IMG/VR virus record: IMGVR_UViG_3300035670_000178
Location: 1 to 64,000 of that record
DNA length: 64,000 bases
Origin: a virus
Direction: 5' to 3' (one strand)
A program made the position numbers and the translations under genes. The notes under the pieces are model-generated. The model was given only the letters and a program-made list of their open reading frames with translations, did no database searches and was not told the origin of the DNA. Positions 9,678 through 59,729 of the stretch are shown piece by piece (position 1 is the stretch's first letter; each line of letters starts with the position of its first letter).

Positions 9678-9867
9678 TGATCCAACTCCTTACAGCGGGC
9701 AACACCGCGTAAGCCGGCAGAATCAGCGTCTCTCCGGCCATAGTCATGATCGTTACTTCTCGTGCTCCGGCACAGTATTCACGAAGAAACTCACTTGCTT
9801 CGTGAGCTTTCTCTTGCTCGCAGCTCTTGAGAAAGCTGCGTTCCTTCAAGGTCAAGTATGTACTCAA
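9658..9867 (-). CDS. Small hypothetical protein, TTG start
   Basis: 69 residues. A TTG start is supported by AAGGAG seven bases upstream. It overlaps the upstream gene by 77 bases, the longest overlap in this block. Sequence STYLTLKERSFLKSCEQEKA then a beta-rich second half. Not recognised. Confidence 0.55.
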   Translation of the reverse strand: MSTYLTLKERSFLKSCEQEKAHEASEFLREYCAGAREVTIMTMAGETLILPAYAVLPAVRSWINEVQGT

Positions 9868-14017: not shown

Positions 14018-14878
14018 CTATTCCGCCGCCCGCTCCGCCGCATATCGCGCACGGAGGAAAGCCAGCTCATCCGCCTCCGCCGCCGCCTTCGCCTCCGCCG
14101 CCGCCGCCGCCTCCGCCGCCGCCGCCTTCGCCGCCGCCTTCGCCTCCTTCACATAGAATTCCACTTTTGGGTAAAAACTGGCGAAAGTATCATCATCCGC
14201 GAAGTGTTCTACCATTGGTGCACCATGGTCACGGTATAGCGCGAGTATACGGTCCAATGGACCGCGGAGGCTATTGTATGCGTCGCCGCCTTTTGCCTTC
14301 TCCGTGGAAATTTGCATTTTCTCGCACACGGCTTGACGGGCATGACGAATTTTTTCCGCTTCCTCTTTGCGAATGGACCGCCAAACAGCCCAAAGAAACA
14401 GAGCGGCGATGGCAGGCGCGATTTTATTCCGCCCCGACTTAATTTCCGCCTGCGCTGCGAAAATTGCCTCCGCCTCTGTCTTGAAATTGATACTCACTTC
14501 CGCCGCCTCCACCGCCCGGAAGGCGATGGCATAGGCTCTATTTTCTTCCGCCGCCGCCGCCTCCGCCGCCGCCGCCGCCGCCTTCGCCTTCGCCGCCGCC
14601 TTCGCCTTCGCCTTCGCCTCCGCCGCCGCCTTCGCCTTCGCCTTCGCCGCCGCCTCCTTCGCCGCCTTCGCCTCCGCCTTCGCCTTCGCCTTCGCCGCCG
14701 CCTCCGCCTCCGCCTTCGCCGCCTTCGCCTTCGCCGCCGCCTCCGCTCGTTCAAGACGGTTATTTTCCGCCTCCGCCGCCGCCTTCGCCTCCGCCGCCGC
14801 CTTCGCCGCCGCCTCCGCCTCCGCCTTCGCCGCCAGCATAGGTTTAGCGTTCTCGAATGCCTCTTTGAGTGTATTCAT
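14018..14878 (-). CDS. Ala/Lys/Glu-rich low-complexity helical protein
   Basis: 286 residues. Residues about 20-115 are almost entirely A, K and E in short repeats (AEAKAAAEAKA). A unique middle part (about 120-240) includes a hydrophobic stretch IAPAIAALFLWAVW and is followed by a second A/K/E block (about 250-275). At DNA level the blocks are near-perfect GCC/TTC/CTC triplet mixtures, so length probably changes by slippage. The family resembles TolA- or late-embryogenesis-like rods only in composition. A single hydrophobic stretch may anchor it in a membrane. ATG with GGAG nine bases upstream. It has its own terminator and is the first leftward gene after the control region, so may be expressed separately. 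Confidence 0.7.
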   Translation of the reverse strand: MNTLKEAFENAKPMLAAKAEAEAAAKAAAEAKAAAEAENNRLERAEAAAKAKAAKAEAEAAAKAKAKAEAKAAKEAAAKAKAKAAAEAKAKAKAAAKAKAAAAAAEAAAAEENRAYAIAFRAVEAAEVSINFKTEAEAIFAAQAEIKSGRNKIAPAIAALFLWAVWRSIRKEEAEKIRHARQAVCEKMQISTEKAKGGDAYNSLRGPLDRILALYRDHGAPMVEHFADDDTFASFYPKVEFYVKEAKAAAKAAAAEAAAAAEAKAAAEADELAFLRARYAAERAAE

Positions 14879-14893
14879 GGGGTATTTCTCCAT

Positions 14894-15217: not shown

Positions 15218-15277
15218 AACTGTACTACCAGTGTAGGGAAAATCTATACTATTGCGGCCTGGGAAAACTGTACTAGT
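15218..15277. repeat. 60-bp direct repeat, copy A
   Basis: Runs from AACTGTACTACC to CTGTACTAGT. The copy at 15396-15455 differs at one base. Each copy contains AACTGTACT at both ends, a possible pair of protein sites. Confidence 0.85.
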
Positions 15278-15298: not shown

Positions 15299-15390
15299 TC
15301 GTCCCTCGTCCCTCGTCCCTCGTCCCTCGTCCCTCGTCCCTCGTCCCTCGTCCCTCGTCCCTCGTCCTTCGTCCCTCGTCCTTCGCCCTG
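15299..15390. repeat. Heptamer tandem array, G-quadruplex-capable
   Basis: Twelve regular copies of CGTCC at 7-base spacing (CTCGTCC unit), plus a degenerate last one. Nine consecutive CCC runs separated by TCGT (15303-15361) mean the minus strand reads GGGACGA repeated, meeting the G3-N4 rule for G-quadruplex formation. Confidence 0.85.
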
Positions 15391-15642: not shown

Positions 15643-16221
15643 ATGAGGTACGAATTCGTTCGCGCAACGAGTGAGGACGATCGGTGCGCTAAGTCTAATT
15701 GTCCATATGAAAAAGTAGAGGGTGCCGACTACTGTCCTCGGCACGGTGCAAACAAACAGATCGAAAAGAAGGCTCGACTGATGAAATATCAATTTCAAAA
15801 AGAGCGAGTTCGAGCGTCTGTCGCACTATTGGCCGCCGATCCAGAGCGCTACCGACTGGACGAAGAGTTGGCGATCATGCGGCTCACTCTTCAGGACACG
15901 ATCAATGCAATCACTACCGAATCTGATCGCGAGTATGCGCTCATGCAGGCGAGCGACACGATTCGGAATCTAGTAGCAACAATCGAAAAGACATCTCAAA
16001 CATGTCTTCAACAAAGCGTCAATCTCGGACTCCTCCTCACAAAAGAGGATCTCATGGAGCACATCCAGAAGATAGTAGACGTACTAGCCGAAGAGATAGA
16101 AGATGAAGAAACGCTACTCCGAATTGCCAACCGAATCGATCGGGTCCTTAGTGGCTCAAGGGATTCGGGATCGAGCAACAACCAGTCCTTGCAATTGGAC
16201 GGCCCAGTATCGACGGATTGA
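15643..16221 (+). CDS. Putative terminase small subunit-position protein with zinc finger
   Basis: 192 residues. The N terminus carries CAKSNCPY...YCPRHG (C-x4-C...C-x2-H), a small zinc finger. A helical middle follows, with an acidic end (EEIEDEETLLRIANRIDRV). It lies first in the late operon and overlaps the large terminase, the usual place of a DNA-recognising small subunit. The sequence itself does not match a classical TerS helix-turn-helix, so the assignment rests on position. The last 40 codons overlap the terminase frame. Confidence 0.5.
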   Translation: MRYEFVRATSEDDRCAKSNCPYEKVEGADYCPRHGANKQIEKKARLMKYQFQKERVRASVALLAADPERYRLDEELAIMRLTLQDTINAITTESDREYALMQASDTIRNLVATIEKTSQTCLQQSVNLGLLLTKEDLMEHIQKIVDVLAEEIEDEETLLRIANRIDRVLSGSRDSGSSNNQSLQLDGPVSTD

Positions 16222-17779
16222 AGATCCGCGGGACAAGACTAAGGTAATCAACTGGAAGTTCGATCTACATCCTTGGACCAAGGAAATGACGAATAGTCAA
16301 GATCGACACTGGGTCGGCCAAAAAGCCGCGCAGATGGGCTTCAGCGAAGTGCTGATGAATCTCGCGTTCTACATGGTAACTCAGAAGAAAACGGCGACGT
16401 TGTACGGCCTCCCATCGGAACGGCCCGACGCCCGTGACTTCTCTGCGACTCGCTTCGATCCGGCGATCCAACATTCGCCATATCTCAAATCGATGCTTTC
16501 AGCGTCCGTATCTAACAACTTCTTGAAGATGTTCGGCGGCATTCCACTGTACATCCGCGGCTCGCGTGGTACAGCATCCTTCCACTCCATTCCCGTGGGC
16601 TGCGTTCTGCTGGACGAAGTGGACAAGATGTCGGAAAAGGCCGTTCGTGAAGCTATCGAACGTCTGTCCGGCCAGATCGAATTCTGGCTTCGGCAAGCAT
16701 CCACTCCGTCACTCCCAGGGGTGGGCATCAGCAAGACATTCCAAACGTCGACCCAGGACTTCTACACATTCCAGTGTCCGGGTTGCTCACGATGGACCGA
16801 ATTAGTATTTCCCGACTGCCTGGTAATCCCTACGGATGATCCAAAAAGTCCAGCAATCAACAATTCATACATCAAGTGCAAAGACTGCGGTATTCACTTA
16901 CGCCACGAAGAAAAGCCATCCTTCCTCTCGTCCGGGAAATGGGAACCCCGCTTCCGTGATCGTAACATCCGCGGTTTCAAAATTTCTCAGCTTTATTCTT
17001 GCACTTTGCACCCTGCTCGTCTGGCCGAGTCGTATCTTAACTCTCTGACGAATCCGGCCGACGAGCAGGTGCTCTATAATTCTAAGTTGGGCGAAGATCA
17101 CATCGTAGCCGGCGCCGCCGTGACCGAGGAACATATTCACAACTGCATTCGTCCATTCAATATTCGATCCGCGGCCACATCACCCGTCGTCACGATGGGC
17201 GTCGACGTGGGCTCTTATCTTCACTTCAAGATAATCGAATATCGTTTCCAGCCTAATGCAGTCGATCCGAATACAGACTCAGAGGCTAAGTTACTGTATT
17301 ACGACAAGATCAAGAACACCGAACCGGGGTTCGGCAACTTGATGCCGATTGTTCAAGAATACAACCCGCTCGCCATCTGTATCGACGCAGCTCCGGAACG
17401 TATTTCTTCGGAGAAATTCGCCAAGTCATTGTTCGGCCGCGCGTTCACCGTGAACTACAATGATCATACGGACGGCAAGACTATTTCAGACACGGATTTC
17501 TTCAAATTGACCGTCAATCGTACGTACTGGATCGATCAATATCTTGGACGTTACATGAACGGCACTATTCATATCCCTGTACAAATCAACGAAGAGTTCA
17601 GGGTCCACATGAAAAGTCTGAAGAAGTTCTACGAAAAAGATCGCTTCGGTGAGACGATCGGGCGCTACGTGAAAACAGAGGGCCGAACAGACTATGCTCA
17701 CTGCGGTGTGTATTGCGAAATCGCACTGCGTAAGGCATATCAGTCCGGTCACCTCAGCAACTTGAGAGTGAAAGTATGA
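16103..17779 (+). CDS. terL: Terminase large subunit (GpA-like)
   Basis: 558 residues. Packages DNA into proheads: an N-terminal ATPase motor and a C-terminal nuclease. Visible are WTAQYRRIE and DLHPWTKEM (typical N-terminal phrases), the ATPase Q-G-F-S region (residues 73-82) and Walker B CVLLDEVDK (D171, E172). Zinc-ribbon pairs CPGC (225-228) and CKDC (259-262) are characteristic of the lambda GpA class. Nuclease acids lie in MGVDVG (D368) and CIDAAP (D428), with DYAHCG near the end. The start overlaps the upstream gene by 119 bases; the conserved N-terminal phrases lie partly in the overlap, so at least most of it is translated. Confidence 0.9.
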   Translation: MKKRYSELPTESIGSLVAQGIRDRATTSPCNWTAQYRRIEDPRDKTKVINWKFDLHPWTKEMTNSQDRHWVGQKAAQMGFSEVLMNLAFYMVTQKKTATLYGLPSERPDARDFSATRFDPAIQHSPYLKSMLSASVSNNFLKMFGGIPLYIRGSRGTASFHSIPVGCVLLDEVDKMSEKAVREAIERLSGQIEFWLRQASTPSLPGVGISKTFQTSTQDFYTFQCPGCSRWTELVFPDCLVIPTDDPKSPAINNSYIKCKDCGIHLRHEEKPSFLSSGKWEPRFRDRNIRGFKISQLYSCTLHPARLAESYLNSLTNPADEQVLYNSKLGEDHIVAGAAVTEEHIHNCIRPFNIRSAATSPVVTMGVDVGSYLHFKIIEYRFQPNAVDPNTDSEAKLLYYDKIKNTEPGFGNLMPIVQEYNPLAICIDAAPERISSEKFAKSLFGRAFTVNYNDHTDGKTISDTDFFKLTVNRTYWIDQYLGRYMNGTIHIPVQINEEFRVHMKSLKKFYEKDRFGETIGRYVKTEGRTDYAHCGVYCEIALRKAYQSGHLSNLRVKV

Positions 17780-19398
17780 ATCCACATCCTAGTATCGACT
17801 CTGAGTTGATCGAGCGTTGGCGTCTCATCAAGAACGGCGGCGACGACTTCATCGAAGAGTTTCTCACTGCCCGTGAGAAAGAGAATCCACTCTCTTTCGG
17901 CACGCGCCGCGCAATGACTTACGATCCGGCAACCGCGTCATCGGCCATCGACGACGTGGTCAACTCACTTTCCGCTCGCCTCGACGTGACTCGAACCGGC
18001 GGGTCTATGGAGTATCAGAATATCGTAGCCGGCATGGACGGCGGCGTGGATCGAAACGGATCTTCAATGAACGATTTCCTTATCAAGGAAACGATTCCCG
18101 AACTCTGTTTCATGCAGAAAGTTTGTTGGGTCATCCACAACGTGACCGACGACGACGATGTTCGGCAAGTACCGCACATCGTTCAGCATCCGGTCGAACA
18201 GATCTACAACTGGGCTTACCGTGACGGCCGTCTAACTGCTTTCGCTGTCAAGTTCCCGGCTGCCAAGATTGACGAAGAAACCGGCTTCATGACCGAAGAA
18301 GTCGAAGTCATCCGTGCTTTCAAACTAGTTGATGGCGGCGTAGAGACTTGGTTGCAGCTTGAAGATGACACGGAAATCGATCCACTGACTCTTGAAGAAG
18401 GGGATTCACGAACGACGCTGGAAATTGACGAAATTCCAGTTGTACTGTTCATGCTTCCCGTGGCTCTTCTGTCGAAAATCGACAAGATTCAGATCGCTGC
18501 GCTCAATCTCGAATCGGCTGACATCGAGTGGCTTCGAATCGCGAACATTACCTTGTACACAGAACAGGGTCACGCCAGCTTTCCTAGCTCTGCTCTCATC
18601 AAATCCGATGACGCCACCGAAACTGAAGACAGTTTCGAGGTCGTTCTTGGATCAGGCAGTGGCCGTAGGTATGCGCTCGGCACTGAACGTCCTGGCTTCA
18701 TCTCTCCTCCTGCCGATCCGATCATGGCAAGCATGAAAAAGCAGGAGCAACTCGAAGCAAAAACAAAGAACATCTTGAAGACTACTATGTCTTCAATGTC
18801 TCTGGCCTCCGCGGAAAGCATCCAGCTGCTCGGGCAAGGCATGGAATCCGGCCTATTCGTGATCGGAACTGTCTTGAAGCTGGGCGAAGATGCGTTTGCT
18901 CGCATCTTTCATAAGTATCTCAACCGTGATTACGTTCCGGTTAACATAAGCTATCCGAAAAAGTACGAACTTCGGACTGAAGACGATCGGATTAACAAAG
19001 CCAAGAACCTCAAAGAAATCGCCAAGACAGTCGGATCGAATACGGCTAAGAAATATTTGGAAATCGAAACAGTCAAGACTCTTCTCGACGGCAAAGTGCC
19101 ATACGAAGAGATGGCAAACATAGAGCAAGAAATCTTGAACTCCGATTTCTGTATTTACGAACCGGATACAGTCCGTGATCTAGTTGAAGGTGGTATCATC
19201 AGTCGAGCCACAGGCGCGACGGCAATCGGTGCTCCTGAAGGAGATTCGAAGACTGCCGAAGAGGAACATATTCGTCGAATCCTTGCTGTGAAGGTAAGCC
19301 AGACCAGCGGGATGGGTGAAGTAGATCCAGATCCTGCATTCTCCGAAAAAGTAAAGAAGGAGGCGTCCGATGAAGTACGTGCTGTTGGAGGAAGCTGA
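17776..19398 (+). CDS. Portal protein
   Basis: 540 residues. Forms the dodecameric ring at the capsid vertex through which DNA passes. The pattern agrees with portal proteins that follow terminase: a mostly beta/alpha N-terminal half, and a long helical region beginning near KKQEQLEAKTKNIL with the conserved-looking LASAESIQLLGQGMESG. An acidic C terminus follows. Starts as ATGA on the terminase stop. Identification rests on size, order and the helical crown region rather than a diagnostic motif. Confidence 0.8.
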   Translation: MNPHPSIDSELIERWRLIKNGGDDFIEEFLTAREKENPLSFGTRRAMTYDPATASSAIDDVVNSLSARLDVTRTGGSMEYQNIVAGMDGGVDRNGSSMNDFLIKETIPELCFMQKVCWVIHNVTDDDDVRQVPHIVQHPVEQIYNWAYRDGRLTAFAVKFPAAKIDEETGFMTEEVEVIRAFKLVDGGVETWLQLEDDTEIDPLTLEEGDSRTTLEIDEIPVVLFMLPVALLSKIDKIQIAALNLESADIEWLRIANITLYTEQGHASFPSSALIKSDDATETEDSFEVVLGSGSGRRYALGTERPGFISPPADPIMASMKKQEQLEAKTKNILKTTMSSMSLASAESIQLLGQGMESGLFVIGTVLKLGEDAFARIFHKYLNRDYVPVNISYPKKYELRTEDDRINKAKNLKEIAKTVGSNTAKKYLEIETVKTLLDGKVPYEEMANIEQEILNSDFCIYEPDTVRDLVEGGIISRATGATAIGAPEGDSKTAEEEHIRRILAVKVSQTSGMGEVDPDPAFSEKVKKEASDEVRAVGGS

Positions 19399-19804
19399 AC
19401 TTTATTTCGCATCCCGCATCGGATCTGATCCGTGGGATCAAGCTGCTGACATCCTAAAAGAAAAAGCTCTCAATCACGCTGAACGCAGTTTCGAACGTCT
19501 TGCGTATAAAGGTCTGGAAGTAACTGCTGGCTACATATTTCCCAGGGACGAGCAAACGGAAATACCTGTTCGCTTCAAAGAAGCAGTCTACGAGGAGGCC
19601 CTTAGCCTTCTTAACGGTAACAGTAACGAACGAGAGCTATCAGACCTGCATGTTAGTTCCTCATCTGTCGCAGGGTTCAGCACTAATGTAGATGTAACAA
19701 TTGAGCGACCTTGGATCGGTTGGGGTCTCACGTCTTCCGTGGCGTGGACTTTGATCGCTCCCTATCTGCTTGATACGAAAACATTCCGCATAGTGCCAGC
19801 TTAA
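19370..19804 (+). CDS. Head-tail adaptor/connector-like protein
   Basis: 144 residues. Contains DQAADILKEKALNHAERSFERL and FKEAVYEEALSLL, a helical arrangement typical of gp6-like adaptors or DnaT-like small head proteins encoded near the portal. AAGGAGG lies six bases before the ATG, within the end of the portal gene. Assignment is by fold-like pattern and position. Confidence 0.55.
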   Translation: MKYVLLEEAELYFASRIGSDPWDQAADILKEKALNHAERSFERLAYKGLEVTAGYIFPRDEQTEIPVRFKEAVYEEALSLLNGNSNERELSDLHVSSSSVAGFSTNVDVTIERPWIGWGLTSSVAWTLIAPYLLDTKTFRIVPA

Positions 19805-19817
19805 AGGAAAGTTTGTA

Positions 19818-20546
19818 ATGCTTTATTTTGTATTCGGTTACGAAGGTGAAAACGACGACGTCGATCCGGTGGTTGAAGAGAAGAAATTCAGCCAGAAAGA
19901 AGTAAATGAGTTCAACAAGAAAGAACGCCTCCGCCGTGAAGCTGCTGAACAAGAACTTCAGCGGCAGAAAGATCTGATTGAGAAACTTCAAAATCAGCAT
20001 CACATGACGGAAGCCGAAAAAGCTGAACTCGCTCAAAAGATCGATGAGTACGAAAAAGCCAAGATGACTGAAAAAGAACGGCTCGATCACGAACTCGCTA
20101 AGTTGCGTAAGCAAGCTGAAGAAGAGCGTAACACTCTTTCCAAGCAGCTCAACGAGATGAAGTCTAGCCGCGACAGTCTTATCATTACTCGCGCAATCAA
20201 AGAAGCTGCAATGGACGGCAAAGTAGTAGCCGCTGATGGTACCGGCCATCAGGTGTGGGCTGTCCTTCGCCACTCCGCAGAAGTCAATGATGAAGGCGAG
20301 GTTGTTATTAAAGGGTTCGAGTATACCGAAGATGGGAAGTCCTTCACGGCTGACCTACCCGTTGGTGAAGCCATCGAAAAGATGAAAGCCAGCGACAAGT
20401 GGGTCAACTTCTGGAAGGATCCGAAAATCAAAGGCTTCCCCGATCCCTTCAATTCAGGTGGTGCGCCGGGCAACAAAGATCCAAAAGACTTCAAGACTTA
20501 CCAGAAGCTCCGCCGCGAAGGCAAGCTCCCACATCAACGAGGGTAA
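19818..20546 (+). CDS. Capsid scaffolding protein
   Basis: 242 residues. A long charged coiled coil (about residues 20-115: QKEVNEFNKKERLRREAAEQ and onward) is followed by a small beta-rich region and a basic C terminus (DFKTYQKLRREGKLPHQRG), the usual coat-binding end of scaffolds. It directly precedes the coat gene. The N terminus is MLYFVFGY, a variant of the leader MYFIFGY found on the coat, the next gene and the tail tube. Confidence 0.8.
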   Translation: MLYFVFGYEGENDDVDPVVEEKKFSQKEVNEFNKKERLRREAAEQELQRQKDLIEKLQNQHHMTEAEKAELAQKIDEYEKAKMTEKERLDHELAKLRKQAEEERNTLSKQLNEMKSSRDSLIITRAIKEAAMDGKVVAADGTGHQVWAVLRHSAEVNDEGEVVIKGFEYTEDGKSFTADLPVGEAIEKMKASDKWVNFWKDPKIKGFPDPFNSGGAPGNKDPKDFKTYQKLRREGKLPHQRG

Positions 20547-20552
20547 ACAGTT

Positions 20553-21896
20553 ATGTACTTTATTTTTGGTTACAACGACACGACTGCTTTCAACATCGAT
20601 AAGATCGCCAACGAAGCTATGGCGATGTTCTTCGAGGAAGGCATCATTGCGAACTACGTAGCGACTGACTACGAGAACGAGTTCGCGTCTTGGGGCGATA
20701 CTCTTCGCATCCCTTACCCGGCCGAGATGGATGCTGACCGTACGCCTGAAGGCACCGCGGCTGGCGTCACCGCTCTCGACAGCTCCTACCACGATCTCAA
20801 GCTGAATCAGCGTCTCACGCTCGGCTTCACGATCGGCACCCGTGAGCAGCAGCGTTCGTTCCAGAACCTTGCCGAAACTTATCTTCGTCCGACTATGCGC
20901 GGCTTGGCTAAGCTCCGTGACCGCGTCATTCAGGGTGAAGTCTACAAGTCTTACGGTAACACGGCTGGCGCTCTGGGCGCTGCCCTCACGTTCGACGACA
21001 TCATCAATGCCGGCACGATCATGACCGAAAATCACGTCCCGACAATGGGCCGTAACGCCATCGTCGGACCGCGCATGGGTGGCTACATCCGCAAAATGGA
21101 TGAGTTCATCGCCAACGTGTCCAGCACGGACGACACCGTCATCCGCACCGGTCTGATTGGCGACATCAACGGCTTCGCCGTCCACGAAACGTCCAGCTTC
21201 GTGACCGTCGCGCAGTCCACCCGCGTGACCGGTGCCGTCAACAGTGCGTCTATGGTTGCTGGTACGACTGCTGTCATTGTCGACAGTTTCAGCGCGGCGA
21301 TCACTTCTGGCAGCTGGTGCACCATCGCTGGCGTGCCTTATCGCATCACGAGCACTGTTGGCGGCGCGACCCCGACCACGCTCAACATCGAAGGCGGCCT
21401 CCGTGATGATGTCGCCGATAATGCTGTGGTGTACGTCTACACTCCGTCCGTTGTTAACCACCCGACCGCCGGTAACTACGCTGCCGGTTACGAAGGTTGG
21501 ATCGGCTGGGACGGCGCCGTTACGCCGAAGGTCGGCCAGGGCGTCACGTTCGGTACGGACGGTCTGCCCTACTCGATCGTCCGCATTGATGGCGGTAACA
21601 TCCTGCTGAACCGCCCGCTTGACGTGGCTGTCAACAACGATGCCTCCATCTTCCTGATGCCTGGTGGTAACTACGGTGTTGCTCTCTCGAAGAACTCCAT
21701 CCAGATCGCCAATCGTCCTCTTGCCATTCCTGGCGAAGGCGAAGGTGTACGGGCTTCCGTCGTCGATGGCGGTGGCTGGTCGATCCGAGTCATGTCTGAG
21801 TACGACATGTACAAGGCTGAGACCACCTACATGTTCGACTTCATCATGGGCGCCAAGAGCCTTCAGCCGGCCCTCAACGTAATCTTCCTGGGATAA
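20553..21896 (+). CDS. Major capsid protein (P22 coat-like)
   Basis: 447 residues. After the leader MYFIFGY comes FNIDKIANEAMAMFFEEGII and YENEFASWGDTLRIPYP, the N-terminal pattern of the P22 gp5 family within the HK97 fold. A central region (about 215-380) rich in V, T and G looks like an inserted domain. The C terminus (AETTYMFDFIMGAKSLQPAL) closes the shell domain. Expected to be the most abundant virion protein. The 21-base leader DNA is identical to that of the next gene. Confidence 0.85.
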   Translation: MYFIFGYNDTTAFNIDKIANEAMAMFFEEGIIANYVATDYENEFASWGDTLRIPYPAEMDADRTPEGTAAGVTALDSSYHDLKLNQRLTLGFTIGTREQQRSFQNLAETYLRPTMRGLAKLRDRVIQGEVYKSYGNTAGALGAALTFDDIINAGTIMTENHVPTMGRNAIVGPRMGGYIRKMDEFIANVSSTDDTVIRTGLIGDINGFAVHETSSFVTVAQSTRVTGAVNSASMVAGTTAVIVDSFSAAITSGSWCTIAGVPYRITSTVGGATPTTLNIEGGLRDDVADNAVVYVYTPSVVNHPTAGNYAAGYEGWIGWDGAVTPKVGQGVTFGTDGLPYSIVRIDGGNILLNRPLDVAVNNDASIFLMPGGNYGVALSKNSIQIANRPLAIPGEGEGVRASVVDGGGWSIRVMSEYDMYKAETTYMFDFIMGAKSLQPALNVIFLG

Positions 21897-21901
21897 TCGC
21901 T

Positions 21902-22345
21902 ATGTACTTTATTTTTGGTTACGCAGAAACTGCGCTTGTCGAATGTGTTGCTCTTAGTTCCGCCGCTCCCGCAGGTATGAAAAGTCTGGCTCTGCCGACT
22001 GCCGCTAGTGTGGCACCTGCTGTTGCTGGCGCCACTTTCTGGAACGCCTACGACTCAGTGAACATGAACTACTTCACCTATGGCACCAAGAAGCAGTTGA
22101 AGGTGGTAAACACCAACGCAACTGGTTCTGTAACCCTCACTGTCAAGACTAAAGACGACACTGTCGCCGGGCTTGATCGTGTAGTCGAAGATTTGGTTAT
22201 CACTCTTGGGCCCGAAGAGGTCTGGGAATCTGGTATCCTGCCTTCAGTATTCAACGACGCTAACAAGGTCAAGATTGAGCTTGCCGACGTGGCAGCTGGT
22301 GACAGCCTTGCCGATTGCTTCATCGCAGTCGTGAATGTCACCTAA
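21902..22345 (+). CDS. Leader-tagged head protein, possible decoration protein
   Basis: 147 residues: MYFIFGY leader, then a beta-rich domain (LKVVNTNATGSVTLTVKTKD). Position right behind the coat gene and small beta-rich build fit a capsid decoration or cement protein. No family recognised. Sharing the leader with coat, scaffold and tail tube suggests high expression. Confidence 0.5.
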   Translation: MYFIFGYAETALVECVALSSAAPAGMKSLALPTAASVAPAVAGATFWNAYDSVNMNYFTYGTKKQLKVVNTNATGSVTLTVKTKDDTVAGLDRVVEDLVITLGPEEVWESGILPSVFNDANKVKIELADVAAGDSLADCFIAVVNVT

Positions 22346-22704
22346 TGAACCTTGACCCTGTATTCAGAAATCTAGGGACGTGGATCTATCTTGTTAGAGA
22401 AGAGGTTGGCGAGCTCGACTATGATACAGGGTTGCGTCCCAAAATTTATAGCTACGAAAGAGTACGTGCGCTAATTGGTCAGAAAAATTTCGGTTTCCAG
22501 TTGCATCTCAATTTGGATGAATCGATGGTAGCTCTGACCAAACAAGCAGACCTCGTGGTTCAAGATCAGGAAGCCTACCGACTTGAAGAGTTGAGTAGTG
22601 CATTTGGAGTTTACATTTACAAGAAAAACAAGGTGACTGGTGATGAGCTTAGATCCATTGTGGATGGCATCGCTTCAAAAAGCAGCCACGAAACATTTTC
22701 TTAA
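22345..22704 (+). CDS. Head-tail connector region protein
   Basis: 119 residues from the ATG overlapping the upstream stop (TAATG). Contains YLVREEVGELDYDTGLRPKI. Lies where head-completion or stopper proteins are normally encoded. Not recognised by motif. Its end overlaps the next gene by about 60 bases. Confidence 0.5.
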   Translation: MNLDPVFRNLGTWIYLVREEVGELDYDTGLRPKIYSYERVRALIGQKNFGFQLHLNLDESMVALTKQADLVVQDQEAYRLEELSSAFGVYIYKKNKVTGDELRSIVDGIASKSSHETFS

Positions 22705-23041
22705 CTACGATCTAGGCGTCCCGTGGGACTTTGACAATACAGTTGAAGGAGATAAAATCTCCGTCAAACTGATTGACTCTAGTCTAACTAAGCTGAACTC
22801 GGAAGAGTCTATGGCTGAGTTTACAGTGCGAATAACTTGCACTGTATCAACGGACGGTCTCTATGACTTAGCCGCCTTGTCAGGTAAAGTAGCTCTTGTG
22901 CTACAAGACGAACTACAAGTTGATGGATCCTGTGCAGCGTCACCGATCCAAGAAGACGTCAAGATAAGTTATTTTGACGAGATTCACGGCTACAAACAAT
23001 CCTTGATGATGAAGAAATTCATCGCAAGACTGCGAGGGTAA
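22643..23041 (+). CDS. Tail-completion region protein
   Basis: 132 residues starting MSLDPLWMASLQKAATKHFL; a mixed alpha/beta protein encoded just before the tail tube, the position of tail terminators. The pattern (helical start, then paired strands FTVRITCTVST) is compatible but not diagnostic. Confidence 0.5.
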   Translation: MSLDPLWMASLQKAATKHFLNYDLGVPWDFDNTVEGDKISVKLIDSSLTKLNSEESMAEFTVRITCTVSTDGLYDLAALSGKVALVLQDELQVDGSCAASPIQEDVKISYFDEIHGYKQSLMMKKFIARLRG

Positions 23042-23042
23042 T

Positions 23043-23543
23043 ATGTACTTTATTTTCGGTTACCTCGATGCGGATGCCCCCATCGAACTTCGTTATTGCA
23101 CCGTTCTCATCGAAGACGGTGCATCGGCCAGCGTTGAGCTTACGTTTGACGACGGTGATTTCTCTTACACGATTGCTCGTGAGTGGAACTACCGCCCCAA
23201 CCGTGGTCGCCTTGGCGCAGCTAATGGTGCTTCGGTCACGCAAGGTGACGATCAGCCGATGTCTCTCAGCTTTGAAGGCCGTTACTCGTTCTTCACTTCT
23301 GTCGCTGACACGAAGCCCAACCAGATCCTATTCAATATCGGCGGCGGTTTCACTTCTACGGACACGCAGAATTGCGCGACCTACGCTGTGAACATCACGC
23401 TGACTTATGAACCTCCCTGCGCGGACAGCGAAACTCTGCTGTTCCGTGACTTCCGAATTGATGAAGGACAGTACGGCATCCGGGACGGCCAGGCGTCGTT
23501 CTCCGGTCGCTGCAACGCAACCGAACCTGAGGTGGTATCTTAA
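23043..23543 (+). CDS. Major tail (tube) protein
   Basis: 166 residues. Leader MYFIFGY, then a beta-rich domain with TFDDGDFSYTIAREWNY and PMSLSFEGRYSFF, phrases seen in siphophage tube proteins. The next gene is a frameshifting chaperone and then the tape measure, the classical order. Should be assembled in hexameric rings around the tape measure. Confidence 0.75.
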   Translation: MYFIFGYLDADAPIELRYCTVLIEDGASASVELTFDDGDFSYTIAREWNYRPNRGRLGAANGASVTQGDDQPMSLSFEGRYSFFTSVADTKPNQILFNIGGGFTSTDTQNCATYAVNITLTYEPPCADSETLLFRDFRIDEGQYGIRDGQASFSGRCNATEPEVVS

Positions 23544-43289: not shown

Positions 43290-43538
43290 GTGATCACCTT
43301 ACCAAATGGAAACAAGTTTCGGGACAAAGCTGGCGACCCTCTGACGCTCGAAGGTTACATTCCCGATCCCAACAATCCGAAAATGCTCATTCAACAGTTT
43401 CTCCCATGCAAGTATCGGGAGATGAAAGTATGCGCCACGTGTCCCGCGTCAAAAGCAAAAAAACTGCGACCTTCTTGTAAACTCAAGAAGATCGCAGTCA
43501 GGTTGACTTGCGTCGGCTGCCTAGAACGGAAAACGTAA
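43290..43538 (+). CDS. Small Cys-rich basic protein
   Basis: 82 residues, GTG start. Cysteines in PCKY, VCATC, PSC and TCVGC suggest two metal sites, in a Lys-rich protein that may bind nucleic acid. It is the last rightward gene and overlaps the last leftward gene tail to tail by 18 bases. A minus-strand terminator is embedded in its codons 57-70. Confidence 0.55.
   Translation: MITLPNGNKFRDKAGDPLTLEGYIPDPNNPKMLIQQFLPCKYREMKVCATCPASKAKKLRPSCKLKKIAVRLTCVGCLERKT
43457..43497 (-). terminator. Terminator of the leftward replication unit
   Basis: Arms CTGCGA-c-CTTCTTG (43464-43477) and CAAGAAG-a-TCGCAG (43484-43497): 13 pairs with one mismatch, six-base loop. On the minus strand it is followed by seven Ts (43457-43463). 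It lies just past the stop of the last leftward gene but inside the coding sequence of the convergent plus-strand gene. Confidence 0.85.
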
Positions 43539-44090
43539 CATTCTCTTATACGCCTTCGACATAGCCATCGCTTGCTGCAAAGCCGTATACTTGAGATCAA
43601 GCGGCGCTTCACAGTTGTTCAAGATATACCGTAAGGTAGTCTTCGAGAACGGGATAACTTTATCTTCCCCTTCGTGAAGATCATTCATGTACAACGAAAC
43701 AGCTTTCAAGTCTCTAGCCTTATCGCAGAACGCAAGTTTGAACCCAGACTCAGAGACAAAGCTAGTCAAGAATTCTTTAGTCACAGGCCAGTCATACACT
43801 AGTGGTATGATCTGGCCTTTTTTTATGTGCAAATCAAACCACTCATCAAACAAATCCCATACTTCCGTGTGGCGCTTAGCGAAGATTCGGTCTTGCAGCT
43901 TCAACTTCTTTTCGTGCTCTGGGCTGACTCGAATATACTTCTCAAAGATTTGCTTGAAGATAGGGTTGTAGTTCAAATCCAACGGCAATATGCAGATGTG
44001 ATATATTTCATCCGTCTTTGGATCTTTACCAGTGGTACGAATACCAATGGAACACATCACATTACCGTTGAGTGTTTTACCCATACGCAT
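43521..44090 (-). CDS. DnaQ-fold protein, degenerate exonuclease-like
   Basis: 189 residues. CSIGIRTTGKDPKTDEIYHI copies the first motif of DnaQ exonucleases (IDTETTG) but the catalytic D-x-E is I-G-I-R. Later, LVYDWPVTKEFLTSF stands where GHN..FD occurs. So the fold seems kept but the first metal ligands are lost. Two relatives are at 48979 and 49813. Start MRMG has AAAGGACG eight bases upstream, a site that lies in the 3' end of the methyltransferase gene. Confidence 0.55.
   Translation of the reverse strand: MRMGKTLNGNVMCSIGIRTTGKDPKTDEIYHICILPLDLNYNPIFKQIFEKYIRVSPEHEKKLKLQDRIFAKRHTEVWDLFDEWFDLHIKKGQIIPLVYDWPVTKEFLTSFVSESGFKLAFCDKARDLKAVSLYMNDLHEGEDKVIPFSKTTLRYILNNCEAPLDLKYTALQQAMAMSKAYKRMLRFPF
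43785..43824 (+). terminator. Terminator of the rightward late unit
   Basis: Left arm AGGCCAGTCATAC (43785-43797), loop ACTAGTG, right arm GTATGA-t-CTGGCCT (43805-43818) with one bulged T, followed by a run of seven Ts. It is oriented for the plus strand but lies inside the coding sequence of the convergent minus-strand gene, about 250 bases beyond the last rightward stop. Confidence 0.85.
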
Positions 44091-44848
44091 TCGTACCGTC
44101 CTTTCTCTCTAGACCCTATGTTTGCTTGGGCTTGCCAACATTCTCGGTAATCCCAATACTTCATTTCATCATAGTAGTCACAAGGCTCGCCACTGAGTAT
44201 CACCTTCCCATCAATATCACCGATCAATTGAAGTAACCTTCTGTGCTCACGTTCGCCAAAGTCTTCTTCGTCGTACATCCCATTGTATGCGCTAACGTAA
44301 GGTGGATCGATATAAAAGATTGTACTTTCTGAGTCATACTTTTCTATGACTTCAAAACAATCTTTATTCAACACCTTAACATCTAGCAACCTCTCGTGAA
44401 TCTTTCTGAAGAATGGAAGACGATCATATATTTTCTTCGCGTCGGAAGAATTCTCCATTCTTCTCCCGAAGTGCTGACCTTTCTTAGAAAATGATGCTAT
44501 CGTCAAGTACCAGAAAGCAACAGCAGCGTCCAGCCCTTCAAGTTCACTGTTCAGATAATCTTGGAACTGCTCTCTAGAGTATGGGTGCATTTCCATCTTG
44601 AACAGCAACTCTTCAAGTGTGTCCGGATCTTGAAGAACCTTAAAGAAGTTGACTACATTCTTGTTGAGATCGTTAAGGACATCGCAGAAATGAGGTTCCG
44701 TGTTTAACAGGACTACTCCGCTTCCAGCAAAAGGCTCCACATAGTAGTCGGGTTCATAATCAATGTGTTTCAAGATCTTGTCTAGAAACTTTTCTTTATT
44801 ACCAACCCAACCGAATGGACTCTTTATGCGTTCTTGACCCATACGCAT
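44057..44848 (-). CDS. dam: D12-class adenine-N6 DNA methyltransferase (Dam-like)
   Basis: 263 residues. Motif I EPFAGSG (38-44) binds S-adenosylmethionine and motif IV DPPY (180-183) is catalytic; SPFGWVGNKEKFLDKI at the N terminus is typical of Dam. Expected to methylate adenine, probably in GATC, which is frequent in this window. A paralogue follows upstream. The sequence that codes its start (MRMG) repeats at the next gene because both 3' ends encode KGRYECVWV. Confidence 0.88.
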   Translation of the reverse strand: MRMGQERIKSPFGWVGNKEKFLDKILKHIDYEPDYYVEPFAGSGVVLLNTEPHFCDVLNDLNKNVVNFFKVLQDPDTLEELLFKMEMHPYSREQFQDYLNSELEGLDAAVAFWYLTIASFSKKGQHFGRRMENSSDAKKIYDRLPFFRKIHERLLDVKVLNKDCFEVIEKYDSESTIFYIDPPYVSAYNGMYDEEDFGEREHRRLLQLIGDIDGKVILSGEPCDYYDEMKYWDYRECWQAQANIGSREKGRYECVWVKHSTVM

Positions 44849-45600
44849 TCGTACCGTCCTTTATGTCTCGACTCAGACTTGATCCTGACCGGAGCCGGCC
44901 ACTTGTCTGTGTAGTCCCAGTAATCCATGTCATCATAGTAGTCACAAGGTTCGCCGCTGAGAATCACCGTTCCTTGAACTTCACCAATCAAAGCAAGCAA
45001 AGCCTTGTGATCTTCTTCACTGAACTGAGGTCCACTGTACGTTCCATGTTGCGTCCCCGTGTAAGGGGGATCTAGGTAGAAAACTGTTTCAGGGTGATCG
45101 AACTCGCGGATAATGTCAAATGCATTCTTACATTCAATGTAACAGTTTCGGATCCTGAGATGGATTTGTTCAAGCCCCGGAAGGCGTTCGTATACGCGAC
45201 GCGTCTCGGCAGATGCTTGCATATTGCGACCGTAGTGTCGCCCAAGCCTGGAAAATGAAGTTTCAATTGTGTAGTACCAGGCGACAGCACGATCCACTGG
45301 ATCAGGAAGGGTATGTCTATTGATGACATATTCATCAAATTGCTCCCGTGAATGCGCATGCAGCTCCATCTTATGCACAAACTCATCGAGAGTTTCTTTC
45401 TCTCGAATGACTCTGAAGAAGTTGACGACATTCCCGTTCAAGTCATTGTAAACATCCAAGATGTGAAATGGAGTGTTCAACAACACAATACCCGATCCAC
45501 CGAACGCATCGACAAATCGACTAGTATACGGAATCAACGGCAGGATCTTGTCAAGATGTGCCTTCTTCGATCCCGGCCAAACAAACGGTGCTTCAATCAT
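44824..45600 (-). CDS. dam: D12-class adenine-N6 DNA methyltransferase, paralogue
   Basis: 258 residues from MIEAPFVWPGSKKAHLDKIL with GGAG eight bases upstream; the longer reading enters the upstream membrane-protein gene. Motif I DAFGGSG (31-37, EPF replaced by DAF), DPPY at 177-180, and the C terminus HKGRYECVWVK almost identical to the neighbour's. Clear tandem duplication. Different substitutions in motif I suggest some specialisation, perhaps in target or modification state. Confidence 0.88.
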   Translation of the reverse strand: MIEAPFVWPGSKKAHLDKILPLIPYTSRFVDAFGGSGIVLLNTPFHILDVYNDLNGNVVNFFRVIREKETLDEFVHKMELHAHSREQFDEYVINRHTLPDPVDRAVAWYYTIETSFSRLGRHYGRNMQASAETRRVYERLPGLEQIHLRIRNCYIECKNAFDIIREFDHPETVFYLDPPYTGTQHGTYSGPQFSEEDHKALLALIGEVQGTVILSGEPCDYYDDMDYWDYTDKWPAPVRIKSESRHKGRYECVWVKNA

Positions 45601-45770
45601 TTCGAGTACTCCAACAACAGAGCCAAGCCGAGTAGAATCAAGAACATCCAAACAACCAAAAATGTAGGGAAGCACTTGGTGTGCTTGAAATAATCGCAAA
45701 CTCGTCGGGAAGCGTCACTAAGGAGAAGGCCCAAGAAAAACAACCCGCAAGCAAATATAAAAGAACTCAT
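45597..45770 (-). CDS. Small two-span membrane protein
   Basis: 57 residues, seen by direct reading. MSSFIFACGLFFLGLLL and FLVVWMFLILLGLALLL are two hydrophobic helices separated by a charged loop (DASRRVCDYFKHTKC). AGGAG precedes the ATG; the stop overlaps the next ATG as ATGA. Function unknown. Confidence 0.6.
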   Translation of the reverse strand: MSSFIFACGLFFLGLLLSDASRRVCDYFKHTKCFPTFLVVWMFLILLGLALLLEYSK

Positions 45771-46319: not shown

Positions 46320-48989
46320 TCAGATGCCTTTCTTCAAGTAACCGTTAATCACGGTGTAAGGATCGCTGGGCGGCTCTTCGGAATTAAGAGAGACGTTCGC
46401 CCAGTGCATAGTTTTGGCAAGCCCGTACTTACCGCGGACTGCACCGGTAAGCAACGCAACTTGTTTGTTGAATATACCCATAGTCAAGTGAGTCGTATCA
46501 TTCTGACTAGAGAACGATTCCCACATGTCATTGACCGACACGCAAGCACCGTCAATCTTGAACACATCGGACTGAACAAATCGTTCTATGTCGCTCACAT
46601 TAGAATCAGCCAGCAACTCTTTACTGTCTGTTTCAATCACGGGGATGCGAAGGCGGCCAGCAGTCTCTGGAATCTCAAGGTCAAGCAATTCTGTTGTGAA
46701 GTCTTGAGCTTCTTCTTCTAGCCGTCGGGTCATCTCCATCTTCGGAATTTCATTCTCCAAAGGATAGACAGGAATCACTACGATCCGAGTGTCGCCTGAG
46801 AAGACAGGCGCTGCGTTGGGATCGTTACTGAACTGAGCAAAGTGCATCGTATTTTCATTCATGAAGGGCGTCTCTCCCTTGCGGTGAATACTGATCTTCC
46901 GACTAGTCACCCAGTCTTTGATCTTGTTAATCACAGGGCCGCCGCGTTTGTTAGACAGGTTCAACTCTTCAATGATCCCGAGAACCGCGCCTTCAACTTC
47001 GCCGTTGAAGTTGCTCGAACTTTCTAGAGCCGTCGAGACTCGCATCACTCCCTTCGTCATCAACAAGTCAATCGCTTCGTGAAACGTCGACTTACCTGTA
47101 TTCTCCTTACCGTAGAAAAACAAGTAAGGCAACGGCTGCTTCGGGTACTGAATTATCGAAGCGATCCAACACTTCAAGTAGTCACCGCCCGTGCTGAGCC
47201 CGTGCTGCATACACCAAGAATTCTCACGAATGGCTTCATCAAGTCCGCGGCCCAAGTGATTGAGAACAGCCATCCAAGTCGGGTAATGAAGGTTCGTCGC
47301 GTCCTCACGTCTAGTATACCGCAACTGCGCCGCGTTCTTGTTCCAACGTCGTCCACCGGGGTACTCAGGCTTGAACGGTTCGTTCACCAAGATCCAGTAG
47401 TTCTTAGTGAGACGACCAATCTCCATTTCACGTTCACGCAACGTGTACCCCATAGAACTGATAACGCTCAGAACGTTTGTCCTAGGCTCTTCGATCCAAG
47501 TGTCTCCGAGTCCACGAATGAAGAATCCCGCGTCAGCACCTTCCGGCGTGACGCAGTGTCGAATATCTTCCTCACTCGTGTCTGTTTCGATCTTGTCAAC
47601 GTTACGCACAGTCTCATGAGACATGAACTGGTACGACTTCGGCTTCTTGATCCAGCCGGATACAGTTTGATCTTGAGGGAACGCATCGACTTCAAAGATC
47701 AGCTTATCGGTCTTCGCGTGCAAGCTAAGCCTCGCACTACGGTTAGTCATATTCGGCGCAAGATTGACCTCGACTTCCATCGCTCTCGCCGCGGCAGCCG
47801 CATCTTCTACTTTCTCGAAGTAGAAGCTGCCATCTTTGTCCTCCAACCCACCGTGAATCTTGCAAGCAGTAGGGAAGTCTGGAACCCTGTTGTAATAGCA
47901 CTGAGTCCAATCACCGGAGTCCCTCGTCCAAGTAAGTGCTTCAGTTACACCGCGGCCATGGCGGCGGACGCTCCACGATCCATCTTCCAGCGGGAACGCA
48001 AAGCAATTCTTTGTACTACTTCCCGTGGTCGCAGTCTCGAACGGGCCTTTCAGGCTCAGCTTCGTGTGAACTTCCTTCAAGGCCAACGTGTGCGTAATCA
48101 ACATACCGTAATCACAGTTCCAGTATGTATCATACTCGGTGATCTTGTTAAGCTCCTCGATCACGCGGCGGTGCTTGTCGTCGAGCGGAGTCATCAATCG
48201 ACGCTTAGCCAACTCATTGAAGTTGTCTATCTCCGAGTCATCAATAAGATCCGGACGCAGACGCGAACGACGGCCGGTAACGACGCCGGAGTGCTCCCTC
48301 CAGTTAAGCGGTATCTCTTTGAGTACCTCACCTTTCTTAACTAGTTGAAGTCCTTCCGGCGTCATTTTGCTGGCCCACACCCAAAGGATCTGACCGAACT
48401 GATCTACCTTGGCTTGCAAGTCAAGCCCAGTGTCGACCGACATTTTCGACAGAATCGAACGTGCAAGCGACTGATGTTCGGTATGCGTCTTGGAATCTGC
48501 GCCTTCGACGTACACGTAGATATGGTATCCACTGCCCGTGGTCGAAGTACGAATTGTAGCATATGGAAGGTTCTTAATCTTCTCGTAGATCTCAGCAAGC
48601 TCTTCTTTTGAAAGACCCTGCTTGTGATTCAAGAGAGAGTCGAAGTCGTAACCGACCCAAACAGATTGCTTGTTCTTCCAGTCCCACCCAGTCAATCCAA
48701 TGCCTACCGCATACTCGGCCAAATCGAATGTCATTGGCGGATCGTCGTAGTGAGCACCTTCATTCATTGAGTCCCACGGAATGCGGAAAGGCTTGTAAAT
48801 GACTCCGGTTTCTCGGCACTGGTAGGTCATGTACTTCTCGCCGCGAAACTCGTTGTCTTTGATGACGATGCTGTCTCGTTTGTCTACATATACTTGGCAC
48901 TCCATATTCTCATTGTAATGCGCCACAAGATCCGCGGGCGCTCCGCAGTTGGCCAGGAAGGCTTTGATTGCCTGTGTTCTAGTTACCAC
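46320..48989 (-). CDS. Primase-helicase (AEP-type primase plus SF3 helicase)
   Basis: 889 residues. GTG start with AGGAG upstream; longer ATG reading belongs to another frame. N-terminal part has VGYDFDSL (D115, D117) and TGSGYHIYVYV (H156), the acid pair and GxH of archaeo-eukaryotic primases. The C-terminal part has LFFYGKENTGKSTF (Walker A 627-634) and LGIIEELN (Walker B near 674) as in superfamily 3/D5-like helicases. Probably unwinds and primes the fork for the family A polymerase at 57155. Confidence 0.8.
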   Translation of the reverse strand: MVTRTQAIKAFLANCGAPADLVAHYNENMECQVYVDKRDSIVIKDNEFRGEKYMTYQCRETGVIYKPFRIPWDSMNEGAHYDDPPMTFDLAEYAVGIGLTGWDWKNKQSVWVGYDFDSLLNHKQGLSKEELAEIYEKIKNLPYATIRTSTTGSGYHIYVYVEGADSKTHTEHQSLARSILSKMSVDTGLDLQAKVDQFGQILWVWASKMTPEGLQLVKKGEVLKEIPLNWREHSGVVTGRRSRLRPDLIDDSEIDNFNELAKRRLMTPLDDKHRRVIEELNKITEYDTYWNCDYGMLITHTLALKEVHTKLSLKGPFETATTGSSTKNCFAFPLEDGSWSVRRHGRGVTEALTWTRDSGDWTQCYYNRVPDFPTACKIHGGLEDKDGSFYFEKVEDAAAAARAMEVEVNLAPNMTNRSARLSLHAKTDKLIFEVDAFPQDQTVSGWIKKPKSYQFMSHETVRNVDKIETDTSEEDIRHCVTPEGADAGFFIRGLGDTWIEEPRTNVLSVISSMGYTLREREMEIGRLTKNYWILVNEPFKPEYPGGRRWNKNAAQLRYTRREDATNLHYPTWMAVLNHLGRGLDEAIRENSWCMQHGLSTGGDYLKCWIASIIQYPKQPLPYLFFYGKENTGKSTFHEAIDLLMTKGVMRVSTALESSSNFNGEVEGAVLGIIEELNLSNKRGGPVINKIKDWVTSRKISIHRKGETPFMNENTMHFAQFSNDPNAAPVFSGDTRIVVIPVYPLENEIPKMEMTRRLEEEAQDFTTELLDLEIPETAGRLRIPVIETDSKELLADSNVSDIERFVQSDVFKIDGACVSVNDMWESFSSQNDTTHLTMGIFNKQVALLTGAVRGKYGLAKTMHWANVSLNSEEPPSDPYTVINGYLKKGI

Positions 48990-49485
48990 CACCCAGTCTC
49001 CTGTAGACTTCTTCGATCCGTTCCACTTTAACTTTCGTGTCGATTTCCAACACCTTACAGATGTTGTCGAGACGAAGATTCTTGAACAACGGCGGCTCGC
49101 TCCGCATACAACGGTTAAGGTTGTCCGTCTCAGCAAGCACCATCGTATCGATCATTCTGTTCTTGCCAAAGAACTCGACGGCAAACTTGGAGCCCAACGT
49201 GTTCACGATCATGTCGAAATCAAATCTGATATTATGCCCAATTGCCGTGATGTCCTTGAATTGAGACAAGATCATTTCTTTCACTTGTTCTTTCTCAAGG
49301 AACCCGCCGGCTACAACCGCTGAGATGCCATTCATTTCTTGAGCTTTCGCGTCGTAAATGTCCAGTCTCTCCGGCTTCATACGGTAGGTCACAGCGCCGA
49401 GCGCAAAGGGCTTGATTGAAAGCTCGATCACTTCATGTGACCCTTGCTTCAACCCTGTGGTCTTTGTAGCAATGCTGCAAATCAT
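48979..49485 (-). CDS. DnaQ-fold protein with altered first motif
   Basis: 168 residues. MICSIATKTTGLKQGSHEVI aligns with IDTETTG but the D-x-E is replaced by A-T-K. The second motif IGHNIRFDFDMI is intact and MIDTMVLAE is as in active enzymes. The first two metal-binding residues are therefore missing, so it is probably inactive or uses other ligands. Overlaps the primase start. Confidence 0.65.
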   Translation of the reverse strand: MICSIATKTTGLKQGSHEVIELSIKPFALGAVTYRMKPERLDIYDAKAQEMNGISAVVAGGFLEKEQVKEMILSQFKDITAIGHNIRFDFDMIVNTLGSKFAVEFFGKNRMIDTMVLAETDNLNRCMRSEPPLFKNLRLDNICKVLEIDTKVKVERIEEVYRRLGGGN

Positions 49486-49841
49486 TTAAGCTCTCCTAGT
49501 TTCTTTATTGCGGCTTTCGTCAAACAAATGCTTCCGCCCGTCTCAATGTCGTACACTCGAAACATACTCTTCTCAGGTACTACTATGTGTCTGCTGGAAA
49601 TCTTGTACTTCGTGAATTCCTTGTACATCTTGACTGCGGTCTCTTCGATCTTTTCTTTGAGCACGCCGGACTTCGATTGAATTATGTTTCTTGGGTTGTC
49701 AATGTAAAGCCAGATCGTTCCAGTCGGCAAGCTGTCAGGCATCCAATAGTCCACACAAACTTTCCCGATCCCTCTACCGTAATGGCTCGTTCCGGTGAGG
49801 TTCTCGAAAATGTCATACGTATCTTGTGCCTCGAATTTCAT
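49482..49841 (-). CDS. Hypothetical protein between two DnaQ-like genes
   Basis: 119 residues. Starts MKFEAQDTYDIFENLTGTSH; a beta-rich domain with FRVYDIETGGSICLTKAAIK at the C terminus. The latter mimics D-I-E-T-G of exonucleases but lacks the rest. No function recognised. Confidence 0.6.
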   Translation of the reverse strand: MKFEAQDTYDIFENLTGTSHYGRGIGKVCVDYWMPDSLPTGTIWLYIDNPRNIIQSKSGVLKEKIEETAVKMYKEFTKYKISSRHIVVPEKSMFRVYDIETGGSICLTKAAIKKLGELK

Positions 49842-50367
49842 ACAACAACTCCTTAATAATTACAGCCGTGGACTCGGCATCAACCAAAGCAGTATGCGCT
49901 CCTACATTTGACACTTTAAATTTCTCTCTAAGCGCATTGAGAGAGGTGCCGGCAGAAAATCCTGGCCTAGCTATGTTCAGAGCCAAAGCCAAACTTGCAG
50001 TGTCGATCATTCGATAGTTAAAGAACTTATCGTAAATATCACGACCGAACACTTGACGTGTAAGGAAAGACTGATCGAAAGGATAATTATGCCCAACAGG
50101 TGTTGCCTTAGCAAACTTAGAGAAGAAGTCCCAGATTCTCGGGATGACCTCTACTCTGTCAGGCCAAGAATTAATTTCTTCTTCCGTATAGCCGTTGACT
50201 TCAAGTGCCTTAGGATCGATTGCAAATCCTTTAGGGTTGATCTTGAACTCAGCCCTAGCTAAAGCGTAATCTTCTCTAAGATCAGACTTAATAACTGCAC
50301 CGACACTAATCACAGCGTGCTTCTCGGGGTCTAAGCCGGTAGTCTCGGTATCTATTATCGCGTACAT
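49813..50367 (-). CDS. DnaQ-family 3'-5' exonuclease
   Basis: 184 residues. All three exonuclease motifs: IDTETTG, VGHNYPFDQSF and NVGAHTALVDAEST (HxxxxxD). Likely a proofreading or end-trimming nuclease acting on phage DNA. ATG chosen with GGAG five bases upstream rather than the GTG two codons earlier. It is the catalytically complete member of three DnaQ-fold genes in this block. Confidence 0.85.
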   Translation of the reverse strand: MYAIIDTETTGLDPEKHAVISVGAVIKSDLREDYALARAEFKINPKGFAIDPKALEVNGYTEEEINSWPDRVEVIPRIWDFFSKFAKATPVGHNYPFDQSFLTRQVFGRDIYDKFFNYRMIDTASLALALNIARPGFSAGTSLNALREKFKVSNVGAHTALVDAESTAVIIKELLYEIRGTRYV

Positions 50368-50378
50368 CTTCACTCCTT

Positions 50379-59401: not shown

Positions 59402-59729
59402 CCATTCGATCCTCGTTCACAAAGAGCACGTTAAGTCTACTGCCCATAAGCAAAGGCACGAGCTTAGGGCCATTCTGACTAATTCTCCAAGATCCGATTC
59501 CTGTGATGTCAGGCTCGAAGTTCTTGATGCTCACGATCCCTTTGATTGTGACTGGAACAGACTGACCGGCCTTTGCATTCTCAAGAGCGACGCCGAACAA
59601 ATCACCAAGATAATTGCGGACTGAATAGTTTCCTAAGTGTGTGACAGGATCTCCTTTTGCAATGTCGCATTCAGCAAGGCAAGTGATAATCAGTTGACTA
59701 CATGAACCTCCAATATCACCGTACGGCAT
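59388..59729 (-). CDS. DUF2190-like (capsid cement-type) protein
   Basis: 113 residues. DIAKGDPVTHLGNYSVRNYL then LFGVALENAKAGQSVPVTIK and GIVSIKNF follow the DUF2190 pattern (strand-GD-strand-GVA..DA..G..V.V...G). In other phages such proteins stabilise capsids, but here the gene lies in the replication unit between polymerase and an ATPase, so its role is open. Confidence 0.65.
   Translation of the reverse strand: MPYGDIGGSCSQLIITCLAECDIAKGDPVTHLGNYSVRNYLGDLFGVALENAKAGQSVPVTIKGIVSIKNFEPDITGIGSWRISQNGPKLVPLLMGSRLNVLFVNEDRMDVLL

Follow-up and report, generated by a model that had tools for sequence, protein, structure and literature searches.

Four late genes with a common N-terminal leader

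The DNA analysed here, referred to as the window, is a 64,000-nucleotide stretch (positions 1 to 64,000) of the 67 kb IMG/VR virus record IMGVR_UViG_3300035670_000178. Its late gene module runs, in order, through terminase (16103), portal (17776), adaptor (19370), scaffold (19818), major capsid protein (MCP; 20553), a gene at 21902, two small genes, tail tube (23043), a conserved gene for a 153-amino-acid protein (23545) and tape measure (24653). Four of these genes, at 19818, 20553, 21902 and 23043, encode proteins that start with MYFIFGY or a variant of it. This leader, together with its counterparts in related phages, is the subject of the present work; its four starts lie where a model reading of the DNA alone (the sequence-only reading) had located them.

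The genes in question are all on the plus strand. The scaffold gene (19818-20546; 242 amino acids) matches PHROG 206, head scaffolding protein (E=2e-9), and its product aligns with the scaffolds of the relatives L210-L213 described below; its leader, MLYFVFGY (19818-19841), is joined to the coiled-coil body by the acidic linker EGENDDVDPVVEEK (19842-19883). The MCP gene (20553-21896; 447 amino acids) encodes a protein with a P22-like coat fold, as seen from matches to PHROG 283 (E=2e-44), to Pfam P22_CoatProtein and, by Foldseek, to the Sf6/P22 coat (E=6e-16), and begins with the leader MYFIFGY (20553-20573). Directly 3′ of it lies the gene of a 147-amino-acid protein (21902-22345), also starting with MYFIFGY (21902-21922). 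Its place suggests that it might be a decoration protein; it has no PHROG or Pfam match, which leaves the label of head protein, given to it by the sequence-only reading, unproven. The tail tube gene (23043-23543; 166 amino acids), with MYFIFGY at 23043-23063, bears its name with better reason, given homology to the tubes of 60+ relative loci and weak structural matches to tail tube proteins. In AlphaFold models, the predicted local distance difference test (pLDDT) score is below 50 for exactly residues 1-7 of the capsid protein and for residues 1-3 and 5-9 of the tube, while the remainder is mostly well ordered. The leader is absent from the portal protein (17776-19398; PHROG 145) and from the head-tail adaptor Ad1 (19370-19804; PHROG 477), homologues of which were used as a negative control. 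The terminase large subunit (16103-17779; PHROG 675, E=4e-76) served as a leader-independent bait for relatives.

When both strands of the window were scanned with the leader 20-mer, allowing up to 3 mismatches, it was found with no mismatch at 20553 and 21902 and with one at 23043, which bears out the reported near-identity of the bases in three copies; 100 shuffles gave 0 matches. The scaffold copy differs from the others by three third positions, one first position and one extra codon. No other open reading frame start in the window scores near these four. The observation that family-typical sequence begins only after the leader also held, since outgroup MCP homologues begin M-A-N exactly at the leader end. 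Viral and genome collections were searched for gene starts with the degenerate forms MYF[IV]FGY or MxYFxFGY, and gave chance matches only. Among the collections scanned, no gene start outside the window phage has the exact peptide.

Matching of leaders within phages

Single-sequence queries recovered no relatives, and alignments were needed. A first capsid alignment led to leaderless relatives, terminase alignments led to L210-L213, with capsids about 30% identical, and a later capsid alignment led to 80 loci. The first 63 distinct phages from the capsid-alignment loci made up our first test set. Since one of the capsid-search patterns touched the last residue of the leader, the family was resampled by terminase alone, yielding 41 further phages, 40 of them with a scaffold. 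A search for the host in about 890 bacterial genomes of three groups returned distant relatives only. In all, more than 100 distinct relatives were collected, and nearly all have, on scaffold and capsid alike, a leader about 12 residues long. Start codons in relatives were picked by rule, the criterion being an ATG with a Shine-Dalgarno-like site; misassignment of a scaffold or start occurred in a few cases (for example in L298, L299, L310 and L316), which lowered the signal rather than raising it.

The leaders differ between phages and agree within them. L213 has PEITVY on scaffold and capsid alike, and the scaffold/capsid pairs of L212 and L210 are SVWILHY with SVFELHY and FYAVF with FVAVF. 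Paired leaders of L326 end ..IIAMAY|ANDVDAF and ..LLIMAY|ANEGE (the bar marks the leader end), and those of L419 ..ADARPIAH|DN and ..ADARPIAH|DD. The agreement extends to the tube: in L465 capsid, scaffold and tube read ..RSWYG|VND, ..RSWYG|EG and ..RRWYG|AQID, and in L339 the usual Trp at P5 is replaced by Arg in all three proteins together. Across the 63 phages, the similarity of scaffold and MCP leaders was 30.9 within a phage versus 15.9 between phages, a difference reached in 0 of 10,000 permutations; in the terminase-only set (40 phages) it was 35.7 versus 19.2, again 0 of 10,000. MCP and tube leaders (33.6 versus 19.0) and scaffold and tube leaders (27.6 versus 18.0) gave the same result (0/10,000 each). 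These phages are related, so that the permutations are not independent draws; the caveat is answered in part by 21 of 55 cases in which no capsid leader of another phage gave a better match than the own scaffold did. No within-phage match was seen in the 16 residues past the leader (11.1 versus 10.8; 1277 of 10,000 permutations reach it) or in the N-termini of Ad1 (10.1 versus 10.0; 3756 of 10,000). The sequence comparisons show that leader conservation acts on the peptide, is phage-specific and is concerted across non-homologous assembly proteins. Of the roles that the sequence-only reading had offered, the relatives back that of an N-terminal tag acting in assembly, localisation or processing, since it is amino-acid sequence that co-varies between their genes.

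Leaders have a mean length of 12 residues and a mean charge of +1.3, contain only 11 acidic residues in 705, and give way abruptly to acidic or conserved sequence. The boundary motif is approximately W/F-x-P/A-V/A/C-F/Y, followed by A or an acidic residue. Capsid leaders end in Y or F in 50 of 57 cases; the ends of scaffold leaders were set by a rule accepting only Y, F or H and give no independent evidence. Between capsid and scaffold, coupling is.69 at P1,.65 at P2,.56 at P3,.29 at P4 and.47 at P5, stays at about.25-.30 out to P11, and is at background from P1′ on, a drop that arises partly by construction, because the mature sequences of the proteins differ. Past the leader, relatives' scaffolds have low-complexity linkers with a median length of 30 amino acids, in which A, G, D, P and E are frequent. 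In spite of a similar basic-hydrophobic composition, leaders do not look like Sec signal peptides, which have an n-region, a hydrophobic core of about 7-15 residues and an A-x-A cleavage site; leaders average 12 residues in total, frequently contain W, P, N or K, and often have D or E at P1′.

About 20 distinct phages in the first set have a tagged tube, and in the second set the leader is present on 10 of the 18 readable tubes. Among five relatives of 52-94 kb, the leader was found on scaffold and MCP only, plus the tube in two. Leaderless tubes begin MAQIDLK or similar, whereas tubes with a leader begin M-leader-AQIDLK, and, of the closely related tubes of L309 and L318, that of L309 has 27 extra nucleotides directly after the ATG. 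Leaderless outgroup capsids were those of Vibrio phage MAR10, Dinoroseobacter phage R5C, Pseudanabaena phage Pan1, a Leptospira plasmid and Streptomyces phages. Within the family, L468 has neither a scaffold (5582) nor a capsid (6279) with leader, possibly by co-loss from both genes; L413 has a leaderless capsid and an ambiguous scaffold N-terminus. Two further observations were made on gene starts. The portal of L315 seems to have an extra N-terminal tag at 1303-1360, AWQSAY|AADL, the capsid of the same phage having PWKSAY|ANDL. In L058, the neighbouring genes at 9774 and 10824 start MPTFVHGKRT and MPNFVHGKKT and possibly encode paralogous tail proteins.

Candidate explanations for the shared leader

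The near-identity of bases in the window could mean that a nucleotide element, such as a 5′-coding translation enhancer or another RNA or DNA signal of strongly expressed genes, is what is shared, as one option of the sequence-only reading had it. Three copies share 20-21 of 21 bases, the window leaders are AU-rich, and GC content at third codon positions is below expectation in MCP leaders (0.52 versus 0.67) and for the window late genes (0.45 versus 0.54). The relatives, however, contradict this for the family, since their peptides differ between phages and their codons for shared residues are mutually random. The 327 residues shared between scaffold and MCP leaders use the same codon 148 times (45%), against 159.6 (49%) expected from codon usage, and the 104 shared by tube and MCP do so 44 times (42%) against 48.3 (46%). 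In L213 the scaffold and capsid residues match while five codons differ, in L212 the codon is the same in 0 of 6 shared residues, and L313 alone has near-identical silent sites (6/6). Codon identity is thus no greater than usage predicts, which points to selection on the peptide. Few synonymous codons exist for Y, F, I and G, and first codons in this family are AU-biased, so that silent-site near-identity in the window is no strong evidence for a DNA element. In the window, Phe is written TTT in 6 of 8 leader positions versus 2 of 38 in the remainder of these four genes; the leaders do show the ordinary preference for AU-rich synonymous codons at gene starts, which explains the choice of codons but not the shared peptide. 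Promoter and RNA-fold scans at the leaders found nothing, with no unusual structure at the four starts, and bases are not conserved beyond what the residues need, as a nucleotide-level gene-start repeat would have them. Cluster K mycobacteriophages do have start-associated sequences repeated at several gene starts in one genome; these are, however, DNA upstream of the start codon, whereas here the match lies in the protein. We regard a nucleotide element as barely credible. Nearly as hard to credit is recent copying, or gene conversion, between gene starts that carry a functionless peptide. The clean 27-nucleotide insertion after the ATG of one tube speaks for it, and this part of the suggested spread of a 5′ module stands, as a route by which a leader enters a gene; it does not account for diverged copies staying matched, with silent sites randomised while residues change in step and the adjoining 16 residues unmatched.

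We lean towards regarding the leader as a short linear peptide that a single partner, common to all copies, recognises and that is perhaps then removed at its end. It is encoded at the start of high-copy assembly proteins, between the start Met and the first conserved residue of the folded protein, and is predicted to be disordered, on the scaffold being carried by the flexible acidic linker. One partner, phage- or host-encoded, would read all copies within a phage; a single common reader is suggested by the fact that not every pair among scaffold, capsid and tube is in contact, yet their peptides co-vary. Such a partner might collect the subunits, keep them in place or set the order in which they assemble. 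Less certainly, the leader may then be removed at its end, where co-variation drops to background, and tagging followed by removal would resemble the capsid targeting sequence (CTS) of T4. A further step, which we take only tentatively, is that the leader may be a phage-specific barcode, a self-sorting address by which a phage's own head and tail blocks reach a single assembly hub, and which would make three or four unrelated structural genes evolve in concert; we know of no phage system using such an address.

Two other explanations keep a peptide function and differ in what reads it. The leader might be mainly a propeptide, with no docking role, whose end is the shared cleavage site of one maturation protease, cutting of which frees polymerisation-competent scaffold, capsid and tube. 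That coupling peaks at P1-P3 and P5, with none on the prime side, that sequence switches sharply from basic-hydrophobic to acidic at the boundary, and that a single SPN3US protease cuts many head proteins at a shared motif (PMC10052503) all fit this. We nevertheless hold it to be rather unlikely, because weaker coupling extends to P11, the last residue differs between phages, a flexible scaffold linker would be pointless if only cutting were needed, and no prohead protease was recognised with Pfam. Alternatively, there may be no third partner, scaffold and capsid leaders binding the same groove of the capsid, with the scaffold copy mimicking the capsid N-arm until maturation and the tube and 21902 copies being later borrowings. 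Scaffold and capsid touch each other in procapsids, nearly every family member has both of them tagged and only part have the tube tagged, and a disordered tag on a flexible linker would suit such binding. Tubes, however, assemble apart from heads, yet their leaders co-vary with those of scaffold and capsid (0/10,000), and in the capsid model the leader is not folded back onto the protein, making this version improbable.

Several results weigh against a peptide that is read by one partner and then cut off. The relatives are all metagenome contigs with inferred starts, and no partner or protease was found. Of the readable tubes in the terminase-selected set, 8 of 18 have no leader, so that it is not essential on the tube. 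The last leader residue, mostly Y or F, may also be G, H, S or C, which is unusual for one protease. Ala at P1′, considered as evidence of cleavage, had to be dropped, because it is the ancestral residue 2. Searches for a protease came out negative: Peptidase_S78 was not seen in 20 records, the window proteins that were scanned with Pfam included no endoprotease, and Peptidase_S77 was not seen in 14 records, the last being of little weight as the control search also matched nowhere. Hence any cutting would be the work of a divergent or host protease, if the leader is cut at all.

Known systems offer partial parallels. Encapsulin cargo-targeting peptides are short, often placed on flexible linkers, and dock proteins onto an HK97-fold shell. 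The likeness to the leader would lie, by analogy, in the docking, but encapsulin peptides sit on cargo, usually at the C-terminus, whereas here the shell protein itself and the tail tube are tagged. T4 offers the nearest precedent: IPIII is directed into the prohead core by its ten N-terminal residues, IPII has an identical propeptide, and these sequences are processed afterwards (PMC9026906). Like this CTS of IPI-III, the leader is a short N-terminal peptide shared by several otherwise unrelated structural proteins. The CTS, however, is on internal proteins, while the family of the window tags scaffold, shell protein and tail tube with a sequence that differs from phage to phage, and, tubes being tagged, the leader is not confined to the head as T4 gp21 substrates are. 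Prohead-protease propeptides of phiKZ and SPN3US likewise put one short motif on many structural proteins for one reading factor (PMC10052503, PMC9026906), which in our case would be the presumed partner. The phiKZ motif is S/A-x-E and its substrates are head proteins, whereas our leaders end mostly in Tyr or Phe, occur on the tail tube too and go with no recognised protease; neither that Glu-ending motif nor the LIE-like one of T4 was seen, and Pfam found no gp21-type protease. We found no description of a tag common to scaffold, shell and tail tube in the open-access library searched.

These findings suggest that, in a large family of uncultured phages, some common factor deals with the subunits of scaffold, shell and tail tube. 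The leader is a readable tag for finding its reader, and co-variation in more than 100 phages makes the question of the reader directly testable. Gene callers that trim N-termini can hide such tags.

Other features of the window

Three related genes on the minus strand (43521-44090, 48979-49485 and 49813-50373) include one clear match to RNase T-type exonucleases (49813) and one weak match (48979); the relative of 43521 in genome G007 belongs to the same family, of which G007 shows one gene and the window three. Considered as a leader partner, the three-copy family was rejected, being an exonuclease family. The minus strand also encodes two D12-class adenine methyltransferases side by side (44057-45699) and a low-complexity Ala/Lys/Glu-rich protein (14018-14893) with AEAKAAAEAKA repeats, built on a 6-bp repeat. 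An intergenic array at 15299-15389 contains 13 copies of the 7-bp unit TCGTCCC; next to it, a sequence of about 60 bases is nearly duplicated (near 15220 and 15400). Among the replication genes, a 113-amino-acid protein (59388-59729, minus strand) has a weak match to Phage_cement_2.

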